Of a DNA stretch of 37,850 nt, positions 33 to 34,110 are shown one piece after another (the first letter of the stretch is position 1; every line of letters starts with the position of its first letter). The notes under the pieces were generated by a model that was not told where the DNA came from, made no database searches, and saw nothing but the letters and a program-made list of their open reading frames with translations. The translations under genes and the position numbers were made by a program. The DNA comes from an uncultured Bacilli bacterium. GTDB lineage: Bacteria; Bacillota_I; Bacilli_A; RFN20; CAG-826. The DNA is taken from assembly GCA_944351395.1 (NCBI GenBank), contig CALVPP010000007.1, forward strand, positions 1 to 37,850. The letters are read 5' to 3'.

Positions 33-214
33 AATCAATAATGCATCCCTTGGATACATATATTGTTAATGAGATAAAAATATTTTATCTTATTTTAGTG
101 CGTATATAAAGCGATAAAAATGAAAATTGATATTAAAAAAATAATAAAAACGACTAACAAAACGGATAATCAATTATACTAATAAAATACTAATATTAAA
201 CTAATAATGCATGA

Positions 215-5655: not shown

Positions 5656-5842
5656 AAAAATACAAGTAGTTATTTAGTAGATTATTAGTAATGTGTATAA
5701 TTTTTATCGACTTCTGTGTAAAGACAAATAATATAGTTTATAACTAAGTTTATGATTGACTATGAACATTAAACGAAAATCTAATCACTCTAAAAAAGTA
5801 ACAATTTCCATTTTATAAATTATTATCGTTTATAGCGTAAAA
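5656..5842. other. Intergenic region without recognised gene
   Basis: This AT-rich stretch follows the plsY stop and ends at the hairpin at 5843-5875. No ORF with a ribosome binding site, no tRNA-like fold and no convincing plus-strand terminator with a T-run was found. How plsY transcription ends is not evident, unless the 5843-5875 hairpin works in both directions. Confidence 0.5.
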
Positions 5843-22869: not shown

Positions 22870-22947
22870 GTATATTTTTGACTAAGTAAAAAAATATCTC
22901 GATATGCAATAGAAGGATAAAAATGATTTTAAAATACTAGAATTATA

Positions 22948-24231
22948 CTAAAATCTAACTTTATAGTTATAATCTATATCATTATCATCAACAACGACAG
23001 CTTTTATATCCCCAATTTTTCCTTTCTTTGAATGTAACATAATATAATTCTCGGTTAGACCAAAAAAAGTTTTAGAATGAGAGTCATACGTTTCTAAAAG
23101 AATATCAAATTTTTCATTTTTTAAAGAGAGCATAATATTTCGTCGTAACTCTTTTTCGAGTTTTAATAAACATCTCACGCGTTCCTTTTTAATTTCTCTA
23201 GGGACATCATCTTTCATCATCTTCGAAGCGAGTGTGCCCTTTCTTTCACTATAAGGAAAGACGTGAACTTTGAAAAAATTAGCGTCTTCGACGAATTTAA
23301 GAGTGTTATTAAATTGTTCATTACTTTCGCTTGGAAATCCGACGATAATGTCCGTGGACAAAATAATATCAGGCACCTCTTCTTTTAATTTATCGACGCG
23401 TTCTAAAAATAATTTTGTATCGTAATGACGATGCATTTTTTTTAAAATTTCATCATCACCACTTTGTGAGGAAATGTGGAGATGGTGACATAATCTTTTA
23501 TCTTTTTTTAATAAGTCTATCAATTCATCATCTATTGAATTAATTTCAATACTCGATAATCTTAACCTTTCTAATTTAGGAAAGGAAGAAAGTATATCTT
23601 TCAACAAAGAGACGAGACCGCCTTCTTCATCATTAAACGCAACAGTGTCGATGCCTGTTAAAACAATTTCTTTTATACCATTTTCGATCAATTGTGCAAT
23701 TTCTAGTTTTATATCTTTTCTATCGCGAGCGCGGAAACGACCTCGCACATACGGAATGATGCAATAAGAACAAAACTTATCACACCCGTCACTCGTTTTT
23801 ACGTAGGCTCTGACATGATTTTTAAAATGGTTAAGATGGGCAATTTCTTCGTATTGGCGACTATTTTTATCGCTTAAATGTAGTTTCTTACCATTTTCTT
23901 TATTTGTTAAAACTTCGAGGACATATTTTCTATCATTCGTCCCGATAGCAGCGTCTATTGGGGCTAAATTAAATATGTCATCCTTTAAATCTTCGACGAC
24001 ACAACCCATCGCTATCAATTTTGATTGAGGACTTTTTTTCTTTAAAGATCTTAAGATTTTTAATGACTTAGATTTTGCAACGTTCGTCACGTCGCACGTG
24101 TTGACGATGAGATAATGAGCGTCTTCTGGTTTATCGACGATATGATATCCGTTTTCTTTTAAAAAAAGTTTGAGGGCTTCGACCTCATAATCATTTACTT
24201 TACAACCTAAAAAAGTTAGATATACATTCAT
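22948..24231 (-). CDS. mtaB: tRNA threonylcarbamoyladenosine methylthiotransferase MtaB
   Basis: A radical-SAM enzyme that converts t6A to ms2t6A at position 37 of tRNAs. The N-terminal UPF0004 domain has the cluster cysteines in FLGCKVNDYE, NTCDVTN and MGCVVE. The radical-SAM motif is CDKFCSYCIIPYVRGRFRAR. The C-terminal TRAM-like part is short and divergent. The ATG at 24231 is chosen (427 residues, MNVYLTFLGCKVN): it lies 1 nt after the upstream stop, whereas the longer frame would need a TTG start inside the neighbour. In B. subtilis mtaB (yqeV) also sits upstream of rpsU and downstream of the dnaK operon. Confidence 0.92.
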   Translation of the reverse strand: MNVYLTFLGCKVNDYEVEALKLFLKENGYHIVDKPEDAHYLIVNTCDVTNVAKSKSLKILRSLKKKSPQSKLIAMGCVVEDLKDDIFNLAPIDAAIGTNDRKYVLEVLTNKENGKKLHLSDKNSRQYEEIAHLNHFKNHVRAYVKTSDGCDKFCSYCIIPYVRGRFRARDRKDIKLEIAQLIENGIKEIVLTGIDTVAFNDEEGGLVSLLKDILSSFPKLERLRLSSIEINSIDDELIDLLKKDKRLCHHLHISSQSGDDEILKKMHRHYDTKLFLERVDKLKEEVPDIILSTDIIVGFPSESNEQFNNTLKFVEDANFFKVHVFPYSERKGTLASKMMKDDVPREIKKERVRCLLKLEKELRRNIMLSLKNEKFDILLETYDSHSKTFFGLTENYIMLHSKKGKIGDIKAVVVDDNDIDYNYKVRF

Positions 24232-29223: not shown

Positions 29224-30236
29224 CTCTTTTCACTCCTTTCGTCAAAGTATTCATCGAGCGTTTCGTTTAAATAATCTATAGCGCTGAGAACGCGGTCATA
29301 ATCGATTCGTGATGGTCCTAATAAAGCAATTTTTCCTCTTTCAAGACCAGGTAGATTGAGCTTCGTAGTGATAATTGTTAAGTCGCTATTCTCATCGATT
29401 AAGTCAATGTCATTTTCGCTTCTTGAGTAAATATCTTTGATGATATCGGGTGAATGAAGAAGATTTAATACTTTCTTCAACTTCGTTAGATCTTGCTTAT
29501 ATTCAGGCCTTTCAAGAAGTTTGTCTTGTCCGTAGAAATTTACTCTTGAACTAGCGAATTTGACGAACGCTTCCATGATGACTTGATAGACTAATGAACT
29601 ATCGAGCAAATAATCTTGGATGATTGGCTTTAAAGCGTCAACTTTATCGACTAAATCGACAATCTTAGTGCCCTTAACACGTTCATCAATTATTTTTACA
29701 CAATTGATGAGGCTCTTCATATCGATAGATGTCGGTAAAATATAAGTTTTATTTTCGACGTATCCTCGATCAGTGACGAATATAGCAGTAATACTATTTT
29801 CGTTAATAGGAACAATTTGGATGCTCACTATCGATTCATCGGTGACGTTTGGTCCTAAAACTGCACTAGCGAGATTTGTCATCTCACTTAGGATTTCACA
29901 GCTTTGCGACAATATTTCATCGACCGATTTAGTTTGATCTTGGAAAATTTGTCGAATTTGGTACTTATAAGCGTCATCTAGACTATGATCTCTTAAATTT
30001 TCTACATAATAACGATAACCTTTAGAAGAAGGAACTCGACCGCTCGAAGTGTGAGTTTTTTCGATGAATCCTCTCTCTTCTAAGGCTTTCATATCATTTC
30101 TTATCGTCGCACTACTGCAATTCAAATTGTATCGTTCAAGAAGAGTGTGAGAGCCAACAGGCTCGCACGTCTTGATAAACGTCTCGACGATAAGTTTGAG
30201 AATTTGATCTTGTCTATTAAGCTTCATAGTTTCCAT
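29178..30236 (-). CDS. hrcA: Heat-inducible transcription repressor HrcA
   Basis: HrcA binds CIRCE and represses the chaperone operons when GroEL keeps it active. The N-terminal winged helix is clear: TFIKTCEPVGSHTLLERYNLNCSSATIRNDMKALEERGFIEKTHTSSGRVPSSKGYRYYVENL. The GAF-like and dimerisation parts follow with SIQIVPIN and GLERGKIALLGPSRIDYDRVLSAIDYL. The C-terminus is Lys-rich. The GTG at 30242 lies inside the CIRCE arm and is unlikely to be the start; the ATG at 30236 is used here (352 residues). An ATG three codons further in (30227, MKLNRQDQIL) aligns even better with the family start and is possible. First gene of the operon. Confidence 0.94.
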   Translation of the reverse strand: METMKLNRQDQILKLIVETFIKTCEPVGSHTLLERYNLNCSSATIRNDMKALEERGFIEKTHTSSGRVPSSKGYRYYVENLRDHSLDDAYKYQIRQIFQDQTKSVDEILSQSCEILSEMTNLASAVLGPNVTDESIVSIQIVPINENSITAIFVTDRGYVENKTYILPTSIDMKSLINCVKIIDERVKGTKIVDLVDKVDALKPIIQDYLLDSSLVYQVIMEAFVKFASSRVNFYGQDKLLERPEYKQDLTKLKKVLNLLHSPDIIKDIYSRSENDIDLIDENSDLTIITTKLNLPGLERGKIALLGPSRIDYDRVLSAIDYLNETLDEYFDERSEKRWKKKKENKKNPKKK

Positions 30237-30262
30237 TAGCACTCATCTTTCTTAAGTGCTAC
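30236..30262 (-). promoter_or_regulatory. CIRCE operator, proximal copy
   Basis: TTAGCACTC (30236-30244), nine bases, AAGTGCTAC (30254-30262). The left arm is a perfect match to CIRCE (TTAGCACTC-N9-GAGTGCTAA); the right arm matches 7 of 9. It covers the expected transcription start and reaches the hrcA start codon. Confidence 0.88.
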
Positions 30263-30266
30263 CTAC

Positions 30267-30294
30267 ATTATAATGAACTATTTAGCAGTGTCAA
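30267..30294 (-). promoter_or_regulatory. Promoter of the heat-shock operon
   Basis: On the minus strand TTGACA (30294-30289) and TATAAT (30272-30267), both perfect consensus hexamers, are separated by 16 nt. The start site should fall near 30260, inside the proximal CIRCE. The -35 lies inside the distal CIRCE-like element. Confidence 0.85.
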
Positions 30295-30308
30295 TAAAAA
30301 AGTGCTAA
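30282..30308 (-). promoter_or_regulatory. CIRCE-like operator, distal copy
   Basis: TTAGCAGTG (30282-30290), nine bases, AAGTGCTAA (30300-30308). The arms match the CIRCE consensus at 7 of 9 and 8 of 9 positions, with the exact 9-nt spacing. It overlaps the -35 hexamer. Its centre is 46 bp, about four and a half helical turns, from that of the proximal copy. Confidence 0.72.
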
Positions 30309-31158: not shown

Positions 31159-32277
31159 TTATAATAATTCAATTAAAATGCTATCTAAAAGTAATGAACC
31201 TTCGTAAGTTGTTTTTAAACGATTATCTTTTAATGTCAGCAAATTTCTATCTAAGTACTTGTTGACTATCCGAAGATATTTATTCTTCGTTTCAAAATTA
31301 ACTTCGTTGAATATATTATCTAACGATAATCCTTCGTCTAATCTTAAGCGAAGCATAAATTCATAAAACAGATGATCTTCTTCAGTTAAATATTCTTTTT
31401 CTTCGATGATATTTTCTGAATGTAAATACCTGTCAAAATTGGAAGTATTGACTAATCGTAAACCATCGATATAACTTGCTGCGCTAAGCCCTATTCCATA
31501 ATATTGTTCATCGTGCCAATAAGTTAGATTATGTTTAGACTCATATGTTGGTTTAGCAAAATTCGAAGTTTCATAACGTTTATAACCATGTTCGTTTAAA
31601 AACTTATAAATGATGTCGTATTCATCTCTTAACATATCGTCATCCTGCGGCTTAATTTTTTTGGCGTGCAATATTGAACGATCTTCTACTGTTAGGCCAT
31701 AACACGAAATATGGTTAACATCTAATGCGACAAGACAATTTAAATCATTTTTTAAGATATTTGTCGTTTCGTGAGGATATCCATAAATTAAATCGCAGTT
31801 AATATTATTAAAACCTAGTGATTTCGCTAATTTGATAACGTCCTCAACCATTTTAGCATCATGATTTCGCCTCATATCCTTTAATATGTTAGCATCAAAA
31901 CTTTCCACACCGATGGAAAGACGATTAATACGATGTTTTAAATAAAACTTAAGCTTTTCTTCATCTAAAGATTCAACATTTGCTTCAATACTAAATTCAT
32001 AATCATCATCAAGATGTATTTTATCGATTTCTTTAAATAATTTTTCGATGATAAAAATGGGTAAAGAAGACGGCGTTCCTCCACCTATGTAAATAGTGTG
32101 CAGTTCACCTATTTTTAATTGCTTTAATTCTTCAATTAATCGATCGATATAAGCAATTGCTCTATTTTCATCATAAAGAAGGTGACAAAAAGAGCAATAC
32201 GAACAAATATTCAAACAAAAAGGTATATGAATATATAGTGCGCGAGGCAAATTATTTGTTCTTTTTATCCTCATCAT
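31159..32277 (-). CDS. hemW: Radical SAM heme chaperone HemW-like protein
   Basis: A HemN-related radical-SAM protein. YIHIPFCLNICSYCSFC carries the CxxxCxxC cluster motif plus an extra cysteine two residues later. GGTPSSLP, EANVESLDEEKL, RLSIGVESFDANILKDMRRNHD and the C-terminal HemN domain (HLFYEFMLRLRLDEGL) are typical of HemW. HemW is thought to bind and deliver heme; it is often misnamed coproporphyrinogen oxidase. No other heme gene is in this window. The frame is open to 32319, but starts at 32277 or 32274 give the expected N-terminus shortly before YIHIPFC; a ribosome binding site is not clear. It overlaps the upstream small gene. B. subtilis hemW also lies next to hrcA. Confidence 0.88.
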   Translation of the reverse strand: MMRIKRTNNLPRALYIHIPFCLNICSYCSFCHLLYDENRAIAYIDRLIEELKQLKIGELHTIYIGGGTPSSLPIFIIEKLFKEIDKIHLDDDYEFSIEANVESLDEEKLKFYLKHRINRLSIGVESFDANILKDMRRNHDAKMVEDVIKLAKSLGFNNINCDLIYGYPHETTNILKNDLNCLVALDVNHISCYGLTVEDRSILHAKKIKPQDDDMLRDEYDIIYKFLNEHGYKRYETSNFAKPTYESKHNLTYWHDEQYYGIGLSAASYIDGLRLVNTSNFDRYLHSENIIEEKEYLTEEDHLFYEFMLRLRLDEGLSLDNIFNEVNFETKNKYLRIVNKYLDRNLLTLKDNRLKTTYEGSLLLDSILIELL

Positions 32278-32530
32278 CTTTTCGTTCAAATTCTTCCATA
32301 GCTTTGATCGTCTTTTCATCTTCGATCGGTTCGAGAATTTGACTCAACTGTTCTTCTGCGATACTTTGTTCATCTTTTCTAGTTAATTCGTCATTCGATT
32401 CTTTATTTCTTTTAATGACATATTTATTGAGCAACCAGGCCACAAGAGCGAGCAAAGCAGCTCCAAGTAGGACGAATAGAACGATATATCCTGGATTATC
32501 ATACCAAGCAAAACTAATAATTTTTAACAT
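32252..32530 (-). CDS. Small single-pass membrane protein, unknown function
   Basis: A 92-residue protein with one transmembrane helix at about residues 15-40 (YIVLFVLLGAALLALVAWLLNKYVI). A strongly charged cytoplasmic tail follows, probably a helix or coiled coil (TRKDEQSIAEEQLSQILE to ERKDDEDKKNK). No family is recognised. It starts 15 nt after the Fic-like gene and overlaps hemW, so it belongs to the same transcript. Codon use looks like its neighbours. Confidence 0.65.
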   Translation of the reverse strand: MLKIISFAWYDNPGYIVLFVLLGAALLALVAWLLNKYVIKRNKESNDELTRKDEQSIAEEQLSQILEPIEDEKTIKAMEEFERKDDEDKKNK

Positions 32531-32545
32531 AAGAAAAATCCTTTT

Positions 32546-33994
32546 CTAACGCTTTTTTGGCGTATAAATAAATTTGTTTTTAATTTGTTCTTTGACGTAA
32601 TAACCTTCTTTGACAAGTGTTTCCATACTCGTCCTAGCGGTTTCATAAGCGCAGCCAAGCGTCTTTTTATATTGTGCAATCGTATAATATTTCCCAAGCG
32701 TACAGTGCCTCGCGTAAAAATATGCTTCGCCACGCTTTAAACGAGGATTAGATTCTAGAAGATGCTCTTCTAATTTTTGTGCATCCTTTTCATCTAAACC
32801 AAGTGATAGATTAGCGATACTAATTGCTTGATTAGGGGCTTCTTGATAAAGAGGAACTTGTCTTTTTTCTAGAGATTCTCCATCCACTGACTCATCTTTT
32901 TCATCAGCATGTATTTTTTCTTCCTCTTCTTTCTTTGCTAGAGCTAAGGAATCGAAAAGATTGATAGGTTCGTCATTAGTTTCTTCCTTTTTCTCGACGA
33001 ACTGTTCTTTCTTTACTTCGCTCATCTGCACGTTTAAGAAAAATTTAGCTAATTCATCGACGACTTTTTCAACATGTGATAAAGCATGGATGAGAAAATA
33101 AGTGATATCGTTAGATTTTTGTACTTCTCTTAAAATAGAATCTAGATTTACATCGTTATGATCGAACAAATTCAAAATATCAATAGCAAAAGCAGATTCA
33201 TCTAAATCAGCCTGAGCGAGCAAGGAAAAGAGAAGCAAAATAGCAATTTCATCGTTGTAATTGTCAAATGGTTTAGCGTAATGAATGTAATAGGCGACGA
33301 TGATTGATTTGACGATGCTTGGTAAATTAGAAGATTGGACGAAACGTAACAAGTCGCCCATCATCTTCTCTAAATATCTAGCTGGTGCATAATCATAAAT
33401 TTTATTTATGATAGCGTTCTGATTAGCGCTTCTAGGATCAAATTCACGATATAGATGAGTAAGCTCATTATTACCGCTTATTGCACTATACAGTTTAGCT
33501 AAATAATCTTCATCAATTGGACTTTGATAAGTCTTTATAGCGAAGCGATAACCATGTAAAAAATGTAATAATTCGATATGATTTTCGTAAAGAGGTACAT
33601 TATTAGGCCCGCTCAATTTTATGAGCGTCTCTTCATCAATTTCAATGCCCTTCACCTTCGCGTACGTCGATAGAATGTTAGATAATAGTTTTTCATGGAC
33701 ATATTGATGAGTAGAAAAACGAAAATTTTTGAGTTTCGCATATTGCATCATATGTTTATTAAGCTTACGCTCGACAGTGTTAGTCAGATTTTGCACAAGT
33801 GAGCACATGACTATATGAAAAGGTCGATTATTTGCATCGTTCAATGGTAATGGTCTTAAAAAATGTTCACGGTAATCCAATATATCATTCCAAAATGTAT
33901 CGACCATCGATGTGCGTAATTCGCGAATGACATCTTGTCTAGTCGCATATATTTCTTCGCTAAAGCGCAGAGCGATACGTTGTTTATCTGCCAT
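32546..33994 (-). CDS. Fic-fold-like protein with degenerate motif and C-terminal winged helix
   Basis: A 482-residue protein. Residues ~135-262 resemble a Fic/Doc helical core: IELLHFLHGYRFAIKTY, FDPRSANQNAIINKIYDYAPA, ARYLEKMMGDLLRFVQ, IVKSIIVAYYIHYAKPFDNYNDEIAILL. Where active Fic proteins have HPFxDGNGRxxR this reads KPFDNYNDEIAI (241-252): catalytic His becomes Lys and the Gly/Arg positions are lost, while PF and one Asn remain. Residues ~320-390 are a charged, probably disordered linker. The last ~75 residues look like the winged helix often found after Fic domains (YYTIAQYKKTLGCAYETARTSMETLVKEG). If this is right, it cannot AMPylate by the usual mechanism and may be a regulator or scaffold. 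AAGGAGG precedes the ATG. It leads a unit with the small membrane protein, hemW and a membrane protein. Confidence 0.55.
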   Translation of the reverse strand: MADKQRIALRFSEEIYATRQDVIRELRTSMVDTFWNDILDYREHFLRPLPLNDANNRPFHIVMCSLVQNLTNTVERKLNKHMMQYAKLKNFRFSTHQYVHEKLLSNILSTYAKVKGIEIDEETLIKLSGPNNVPLYENHIELLHFLHGYRFAIKTYQSPIDEDYLAKLYSAISGNNELTHLYREFDPRSANQNAIINKIYDYAPARYLEKMMGDLLRFVQSSNLPSIVKSIIVAYYIHYAKPFDNYNDEIAILLLFSLLAQADLDESAFAIDILNLFDHNDVNLDSILREVQKSNDITYFLIHALSHVEKVVDELAKFFLNVQMSEVKKEQFVEKKEETNDEPINLFDSLALAKKEEEEKIHADEKDESVDGESLEKRQVPLYQEAPNQAISIANLSLGLDEKDAQKLEEHLLESNPRLKRGEAYFYARHCTLGKYYTIAQYKKTLGCAYETARTSMETLVKEGYYVKEQIKNKFIYTPKKR

Positions 33995-34020
33995 AAATTA
34001 GCGACCTCCTTATTTCAATT

Positions 34021-34036
34021 AAAAGTATATACTTTT
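34021..34036. promoter_or_regulatory. Perfect 16-bp palindrome before the Fic-like gene
   Basis: AAAAGTATATACTTTT lies 26 nt upstream of the ATG of the Fic-like/winged-helix gene, just before its AAGGAGG. Read on the minus strand it contains TATACT, a fair -10. The symmetric placement on a promoter suggests an operator, possibly for the winged-helix protein encoded next to it. The rest of 33995-34110 is AT-rich without other features. Confidence 0.45.
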
Positions 34037-34110
34037 CACTTAAAAAAATAAATAGAAATTAGTAGATAATTAGTAATTTATGTTATTTGGAGAGAAATTT
34101 AAGTCGATGA

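Follow-up and report, generated by a model that had tools for sequence, protein, structure and literature searches.

Introduction

To our knowledge, proteins that mark the replication terminus have been described in few bacterial lineages, and the distribution of each of them, MatP, RTP, Tus and ZapT, is restricted. RTP is a small, Fic-free protein. Both rtp and tus are autoregulated through a ter site located in their own promoters (PMC10331603). The MatP-binding site, matS, is a 13-bp sequence that recurs 23 times within 800 kb (PMC3330122), and ZapT, a member of the MerR family, has sites that lie mostly inside genes and shows low sequence specificity in vitro (PMC7188993). ParE and GyrB are targets of modification by active Fic proteins, and ParE is still bound by Fic-1 H135A, a catalytically dead mutant (PMC7479194). 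A literature search for degenerate or pseudo-Fic proteins, or for winged-helix Fic proteins acting on DNA, yielded nothing to the point.

Here, we compare these systems with a locus from an uncultured Bacilli bacterium, contained in a window of 37,850 nucleotides (the whole stretch of DNA analysed, contig CALVPP010000007.1). An initial annotation, made from the letters of this window, had described a Fic-like protein of 482 amino acids with an inactivated motif and a C-terminal winged helix. Its gene, termed the pseudo-Fic gene below, and the other features of the window are listed in Table 1.

Table 1. Positions of the pseudo-Fic gene, its neighbours and the tandem arrays within the window
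Feature	Position	Strand	Remarks
Pseudo-Fic winged-helix protein, 482 aa	32546..33994	-	Intact ATG frame, 482 codons; helical N-terminus (1-65), core with Fic fold (to ~340), disordered linker (344-397) and winged helix (402-482)
C-terminal winged helix, residues 402-482	32546..32791	-	Best conserved region of the protein, with a mean pairwise identity of 63% and dN/dS ~0
Degenerate Fic motif region, residues 237-251, IHYAKPFDNYNDEIA	33242..33286	-	Homologue alignment, n=75
92-aa one-pass membrane protein	32252..32530	-	Directly downstream of the pseudo-Fic gene, conserved there in most relatives
hemW	31159..32319	-	Belongs to the ancestral order lepA-[pseudo-Fic gene]-small membrane protein-hemW-hrcA
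Tandem array TTAGTAGATAATTAGTA, 11-bp period	34059..34075	+	Lies 65-81 bp before the start codon; may serve as operator and terminus element
Three-unit array	177..204	-	Just downstream of a parC-type topoisomerase gene (215-2890)
Two-unit array TTAGTAGATTATTAGTA	5674..5690	+	19 bp past plsY; the clear gene that follows is encoded on the other strand
Weaker two-unit array	22936..22951	-	Relaxed pattern

A Fic fold without the catalytic motif

The gene is preceded by an AAGGAGG-type ribosome binding site at ~34001-34008, which, together with the intact frame, agrees with the initial annotation. Although the single sequence gave only a Fic match of 17.5 bits in Pfam, under the cut-off of 24, a profile of 43 homologues placed Fic structures first among those of the PDB (4rgl, E=1.4e-12; 8cil, E=2.8e-10). 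In addition, the AlphaFold2 model of the protein (pLDDT 87.8, with a disordered linker) retrieved only Fic proteins as top matches in Foldseek, and structural comparison gave VIA Z values of 23.9 to 4rgl and 22.8 to SoFic. The 482-aa protein is therefore a genuine Fic-fold protein by both profile and structure, as had been proposed. The last 80 residues are modelled as the expected winged helix. The best PDB matches of this domain are generic, with no specific structural relative among the matches listed; RTP is not among the matches listed either, which excludes nothing.

The proposed inactivation of the motif is borne out by the homologues. In the HMM alignment, residues 241-249 (KPFDNYNDE) align gap-free to HPFADGNGR of PDB 4rgl, with K241 in place of the catalytic His and N247-D248-E249 in place of N-G-R. 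Across 75 aligned homologues, the catalytic position is occupied by Lys (57), Arg (11) or Gln (5), otherwise by Val or Met, and never by His; the motif Pro (P242) is present in all 75, Phe (F243) in 74 and E249 in 67. The resulting consensus is [KRQ]PFxx[YF][NS][ED]E-like as against HPFxDGNGR, the G-N-G-R stretch having mostly become [YF]-[NS]-[ED]-E. Thus, the signature of catalytic Fic AMP-transferases, HPFx[DE]GN[GK]R with its catalytic His, was found in 0 of the 75 sequences, Gly and Arg being replaced by Glu or Asp. As the altered motif is shared by the 75 homologues, the catalytic motif was lost long ago, and the residues now in its place are conserved in their own right. Two other Fic proteins of the same genome retain intact motifs (HPFDDGNGR and HPFLEGNGR).

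Between close pairs, dN/dS ranges from 0.05 to 0.11 for the whole gene, indicative of purifying selection, and from 0.03 to 0.07 for the Fic core, and it is ~0 for the winged helix. For a core on which selection still acts after the loss of the chemistry, a scaffold for protein interactions is the most likely role. The initial annotation was right on the fold, the loss of the motif and the selection, and both conditions it had named for its own refutation came out in its favour, the replacement motif being shared by the homologues and Fic structures ranking first with the family profile. Its suggestion that the gene is maintained for another function also stands, and as to which function, the evidence presented below favours organisation of the chromosome terminus over general regulation or another chemistry. 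The arrays linked to the terminus and to dif, and a likely function in terminus organisation, are new relative to that annotation.

Conservation of the gene and its neighbourhood

The pseudo-Fic gene was observed in 179 of the 196 genomes of its order, and its frame is intact in nearly all genomes that hold it. In relatives, it is nearly always positioned between lepA and the group formed by the small membrane protein gene, hemW and hrcA; in the window, grpE, dnaK and dnaJ come next on the same side. The small membrane protein and hemW had been correctly placed downstream on the same strand, with the nuance that lgt precedes the gene on this strand at a gap of 116 bp. In the genus of the window, lgt takes the place of lepA, which is found there in nearly all relatives; beside lgt, the segment 34964-37702 encodes a membrane protein as well as two probable lipoproteins and is a local rearrangement of the genus. 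With lepA or lgt, the small membrane protein, hemW and hrcA as neighbours, the locus has no adjacent antitoxin gene of the kind that defines a Fic toxin-antitoxin module, which is consistent with what had been noted from the window. The 92-aa membrane protein is a possible membrane partner of the pseudo-Fic protein. At the start of hrcA, two CIRCE-like inverted repeats (30236-30262 and 30282-30308) fit the expectation for an HrcA regulon.

In family f25, which belongs to another order, the place between lepA and hemW holds a protein of ~300 aa that is alike at the N-terminus and in the winged helix and from which the Fic core is deleted; hhalign relates it to the pseudo-Fic family at 99.9% (E=1.8e-34). 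What lasts in the family, as this orthologue without a Fic core shows, is thus the winged helix together with the N-terminal module. Its recognition-helix region (YETAR) is unchanged, and its promoter is without the TTAGTA array described below. Several promoters of the f25 orthologues have a common CTAGTTTTGTCGA-like element, distinct from that array. At the f25 loci with the Fic-less orthologue (L158, L160, L162, L163, L168, L169, L174 and L175), a receiver-Spo0A_C-type protein often follows.

Tandem arrays upstream of the gene

The array is a tandem repeat with an exact 11-bp period, (YTAGTAGWTWW)n, in which YTAGTAGWTWW is the consensus unit. Upstream of the pseudo-Fic gene, 91 YTAGT pairs at 11 bp were observed (0.1 expected), and arrays occur in 73 of 98 upstream regions, compared with 0.34 expected by shuffling. 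Among the 73 loci with enough flank, 54 have an array at most 160 bp upstream of the gene; for comparison, the flanks, 890 kb in all, contain only 8 further arrays. Over the 6 kb to each side, the array stands almost solely before this gene, even where lgt replaces lepA, and in relatives it lies just upstream of a putative promoter. Both orientations occur before the gene, that of the window being reversed relative to it, which argues that the array acts as DNA. Between the array of the window and the start codon there is also a perfect palindrome, AAAAGTATATACTTTT (34021-34036), the core of which occurs exactly once in this genome; as this core has no exact match in the loci of other species examined, the palindrome was rejected as an operator.

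Arrays at the replication terminus and dif

A scan over genomes with the strict pattern TTAGTA-N5-TTAGTA found the sites concentrated in one part of the chromosome in each genome. In G014 and G273, this part lies opposite dnaA, at the switch of GC skew and coding strand, and ten further contigs agree with clustering at the terminus as far as their length allows. In 0.92 Mb around the termini, YTAGTA pairs are spaced by 11 bp in 95 cases, by 22 bp in 37 and by 33 bp in 11, other spacings occurring 0-3 times.

A dif sequence of the type ACTTCGNATAAT-N4-ATTATGTWAA was sought and found in twelve terminus regions, in ten more regions and in one genome without the gene (G048); the ten regions of the second batch were chosen around array sites, so that the dif sequences located in them are only partly independent, and most of the first twelve regions were long stretches. 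Of the 22 dif loci in genomes that hold the gene, 19 have an array directed at dif that begins on its XerD side, at a distance of 122-156 bp, a strict geometry with a chance of ~0.0045 per genome. At the level of sequence, the array beside dif thus stands on firm ground. The three remaining loci, all from family f5, have nearby arrays in another layout: at G057:C8, G480:C1 and G482:C34, arrays lie on both sides of dif, partly as inverted pairs, whereas the other families are single-sided. The pseudo-Fic gene itself and dif are separated by 30-57 kb in eleven genomes. In G048, the contig starts exactly at dif (L349 position 1, G048:C8:1). A DnaA-box-like TTWTCCACA, or a one-base variant of it, is present in 15 of the 22 dif loci, 103-136 bp from the start of dif, just before the array and in constant orientation; a DnaA-trio or DnaA-box reading of the arrays was rejected, since such a box stands beside many dif-proximal arrays but beside only 3 of 65 others.

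With regard to orientation, arrays directed at dif outnumber those directed away from it by 55 to 22 (p=1e-4), or by 43 to 22 when the dif-proximal arrays are left out; a stronger bias would be expected if they were a strict fork trap or KOPS. A KOPS-like guide sequence for FtsK was rejected on account of this slight bias and of the concentration of the sites at the terminus. Although ~94% of the sequence lies within ORFs according to a simple caller, 65 of the 77 terminus arrays are intergenic, with enrichment in convergent gaps (p=2e-5) and depletion in divergent ones (p=0.006); 20 of these 65 sit between convergent genes. An ordinary regulon was rejected as an explanation of the arrays, because convergent gaps are favoured and divergent promoters avoided.

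Discussion

We infer, with fair confidence, that the pseudo-Fic protein binds the arrays, because an array precedes its gene, families without the gene have no excess of arrays, the dif of G048 is array-free and the winged helix is conserved. The gene-less families f4, f6 and f8 have 6 strict sites versus 18 in the control, as compared with ~209 versus 62 in genomes with the gene; G048 is the sole gene-less control for dif, that is, one genome. Counting against the link are ten genomes with the gene and without a strict array (G017, G020, G028, G030, G041, G046, G182, G241, G504 and G508), five genomes of the order with arrays in which the gene was not found, maybe owing to assembly gaps (G511, G543, G577, G589 and G503), and the differing promoter element of f25.

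We propose that this catalytically dead Fic protein probably binds DNA at the replication terminus in a sequence-specific manner, and a terminus role analogous to that of RTP, MatP or ZapT is the best reading of the locus. The winged helix would bind the tandem 11-bp repeats next to dif, at mostly intergenic and often convergent positions over some tens of kb around dif, and in its own promoter, where binding may autoregulate the gene, as for rtp and tus. An 11-bp phase would put protomers on one face of the helix, possibly giving a cooperative filament or cluster, and the inert Fic core may serve as a scaffold for protein interactions. More speculatively, the core could recruit topoisomerase IV (ParE) to dif; given that ParE, like GyrB, is modified by active Fic proteins and is still bound by a dead one, this would be a sensible first test. 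Nevertheless, we regard recruitment of topoisomerase IV, of Xer/FtsK or of the divisome as doubtful for each partner taken singly. The complete scheme, an undescribed terminus system in which a dead Fic protein with a winged helix binds 11-bp-phased TTAGTA arrays set at a constant distance from dif and around it, controls its own gene through such an array and, via its core, brings in topoisomerase IV or the Xer/FtsK/division machinery, is put forward only tentatively.

Several other explanations have to be weighed against a terminus-binding pseudo-Fic protein. The arrays might be bound by another terminus protein, the pseudo-Fic gene being merely controlled by, or situated within, the terminus domain and having a separate role, for example as a regulator of the lepA-hrcA stress locus. 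We consider this rather unlikely: it is in keeping with the position of the gene inside the terminus domain and with the few genomes that have arrays where the gene was not found, but it leaves the near exclusive placement of arrays before this gene within 6 kb, even with lgt for lepA, hard to understand, as well as the missing array excess in gene-less families and the fact that the winged helix is the most conserved part of the protein. A purely local transcription factor, with the winged helix repressing its own operon (the pseudo-Fic gene, the small membrane protein gene and hemW) and the terminus arrays coincidental or secondary, appears improbable. Most arrays lie outside promoters, many of the intergenic ones between convergent genes, and the array beside dif has a fixed geometry, even though winged helices are common among Fic proteins and the array in relatives lies just upstream of a putative promoter.

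The remaining explanations concern the Fic core itself. A different chemistry that needs neither the His nor the GNGR anion hole might be suspected from the strong conservation of the replacement motif and from the purifying selection on the core; acidic residues in place of the phosphate-binding Gly and Arg disfavour ATP phosphates, however, and the f25 orthologues have lost the core altogether, which makes such a chemistry very improbable. Decay of a Fic toxin into a pseudogene, to which the degenerate motif might point, is already refuted by the low dN/dS, by frames intact in nearly all holders and by the conserved place of the gene.

If the terminus function of the pseudo-Fic protein is true, it would represent a new terminus system, with a dif-linked repeat across an order of small-genome gut Bacilli and a strong candidate for its binder, and a rare example of a Fic enzyme turned into a chromosome protein after losing its chemistry. 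The dif-linked array would also offer a direct, testable site for the placing of dimer resolution and decatenation in reduced genomes.

Comparison with known systems

The Fic proteins with a C-terminal winged helix (PDB 4rgl; SoFic, 3eqx/3zcn; Coxiella Fic 2, 8cil) share with the pseudo-Fic protein the core fold, the YR and post-core D-x-T landmarks and the winged helix. In contrast to them, the catalytic His and GNGR are gone here (75/75), and an extra N-terminal module, a fixed chromosomal place and arrays at dif are found. MatP/matS of enterobacteria resembles the present case in having multiple sites around the terminus and, as a candidate feature, a link to topoisomerase IV and division; MatP differs in fold and is not known to have a site at a constant distance from dif, and the matS site is unlike the array described here. 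ZapT of Caulobacter is likewise annotated as a transcription factor and binds near the terminus (PMC7188993), but its family, the location of its sites and its low specificity are unlike those of the pseudo-Fic case. RTP/Ter of Bacillus subtilis combines a winged-helix protein with terminus-clustered sites and a site in its own promoter (PMC10331603), a likeness that, for the protein described here, depends on its predicted binding to the arrays. The sites described here, in contrast, consist of dif-linked tandem repeats with an 11-bp period and only a mild polarity (55 toward dif, 22 away from it), and the relation to RTP/Ter is proposed as an analogy.
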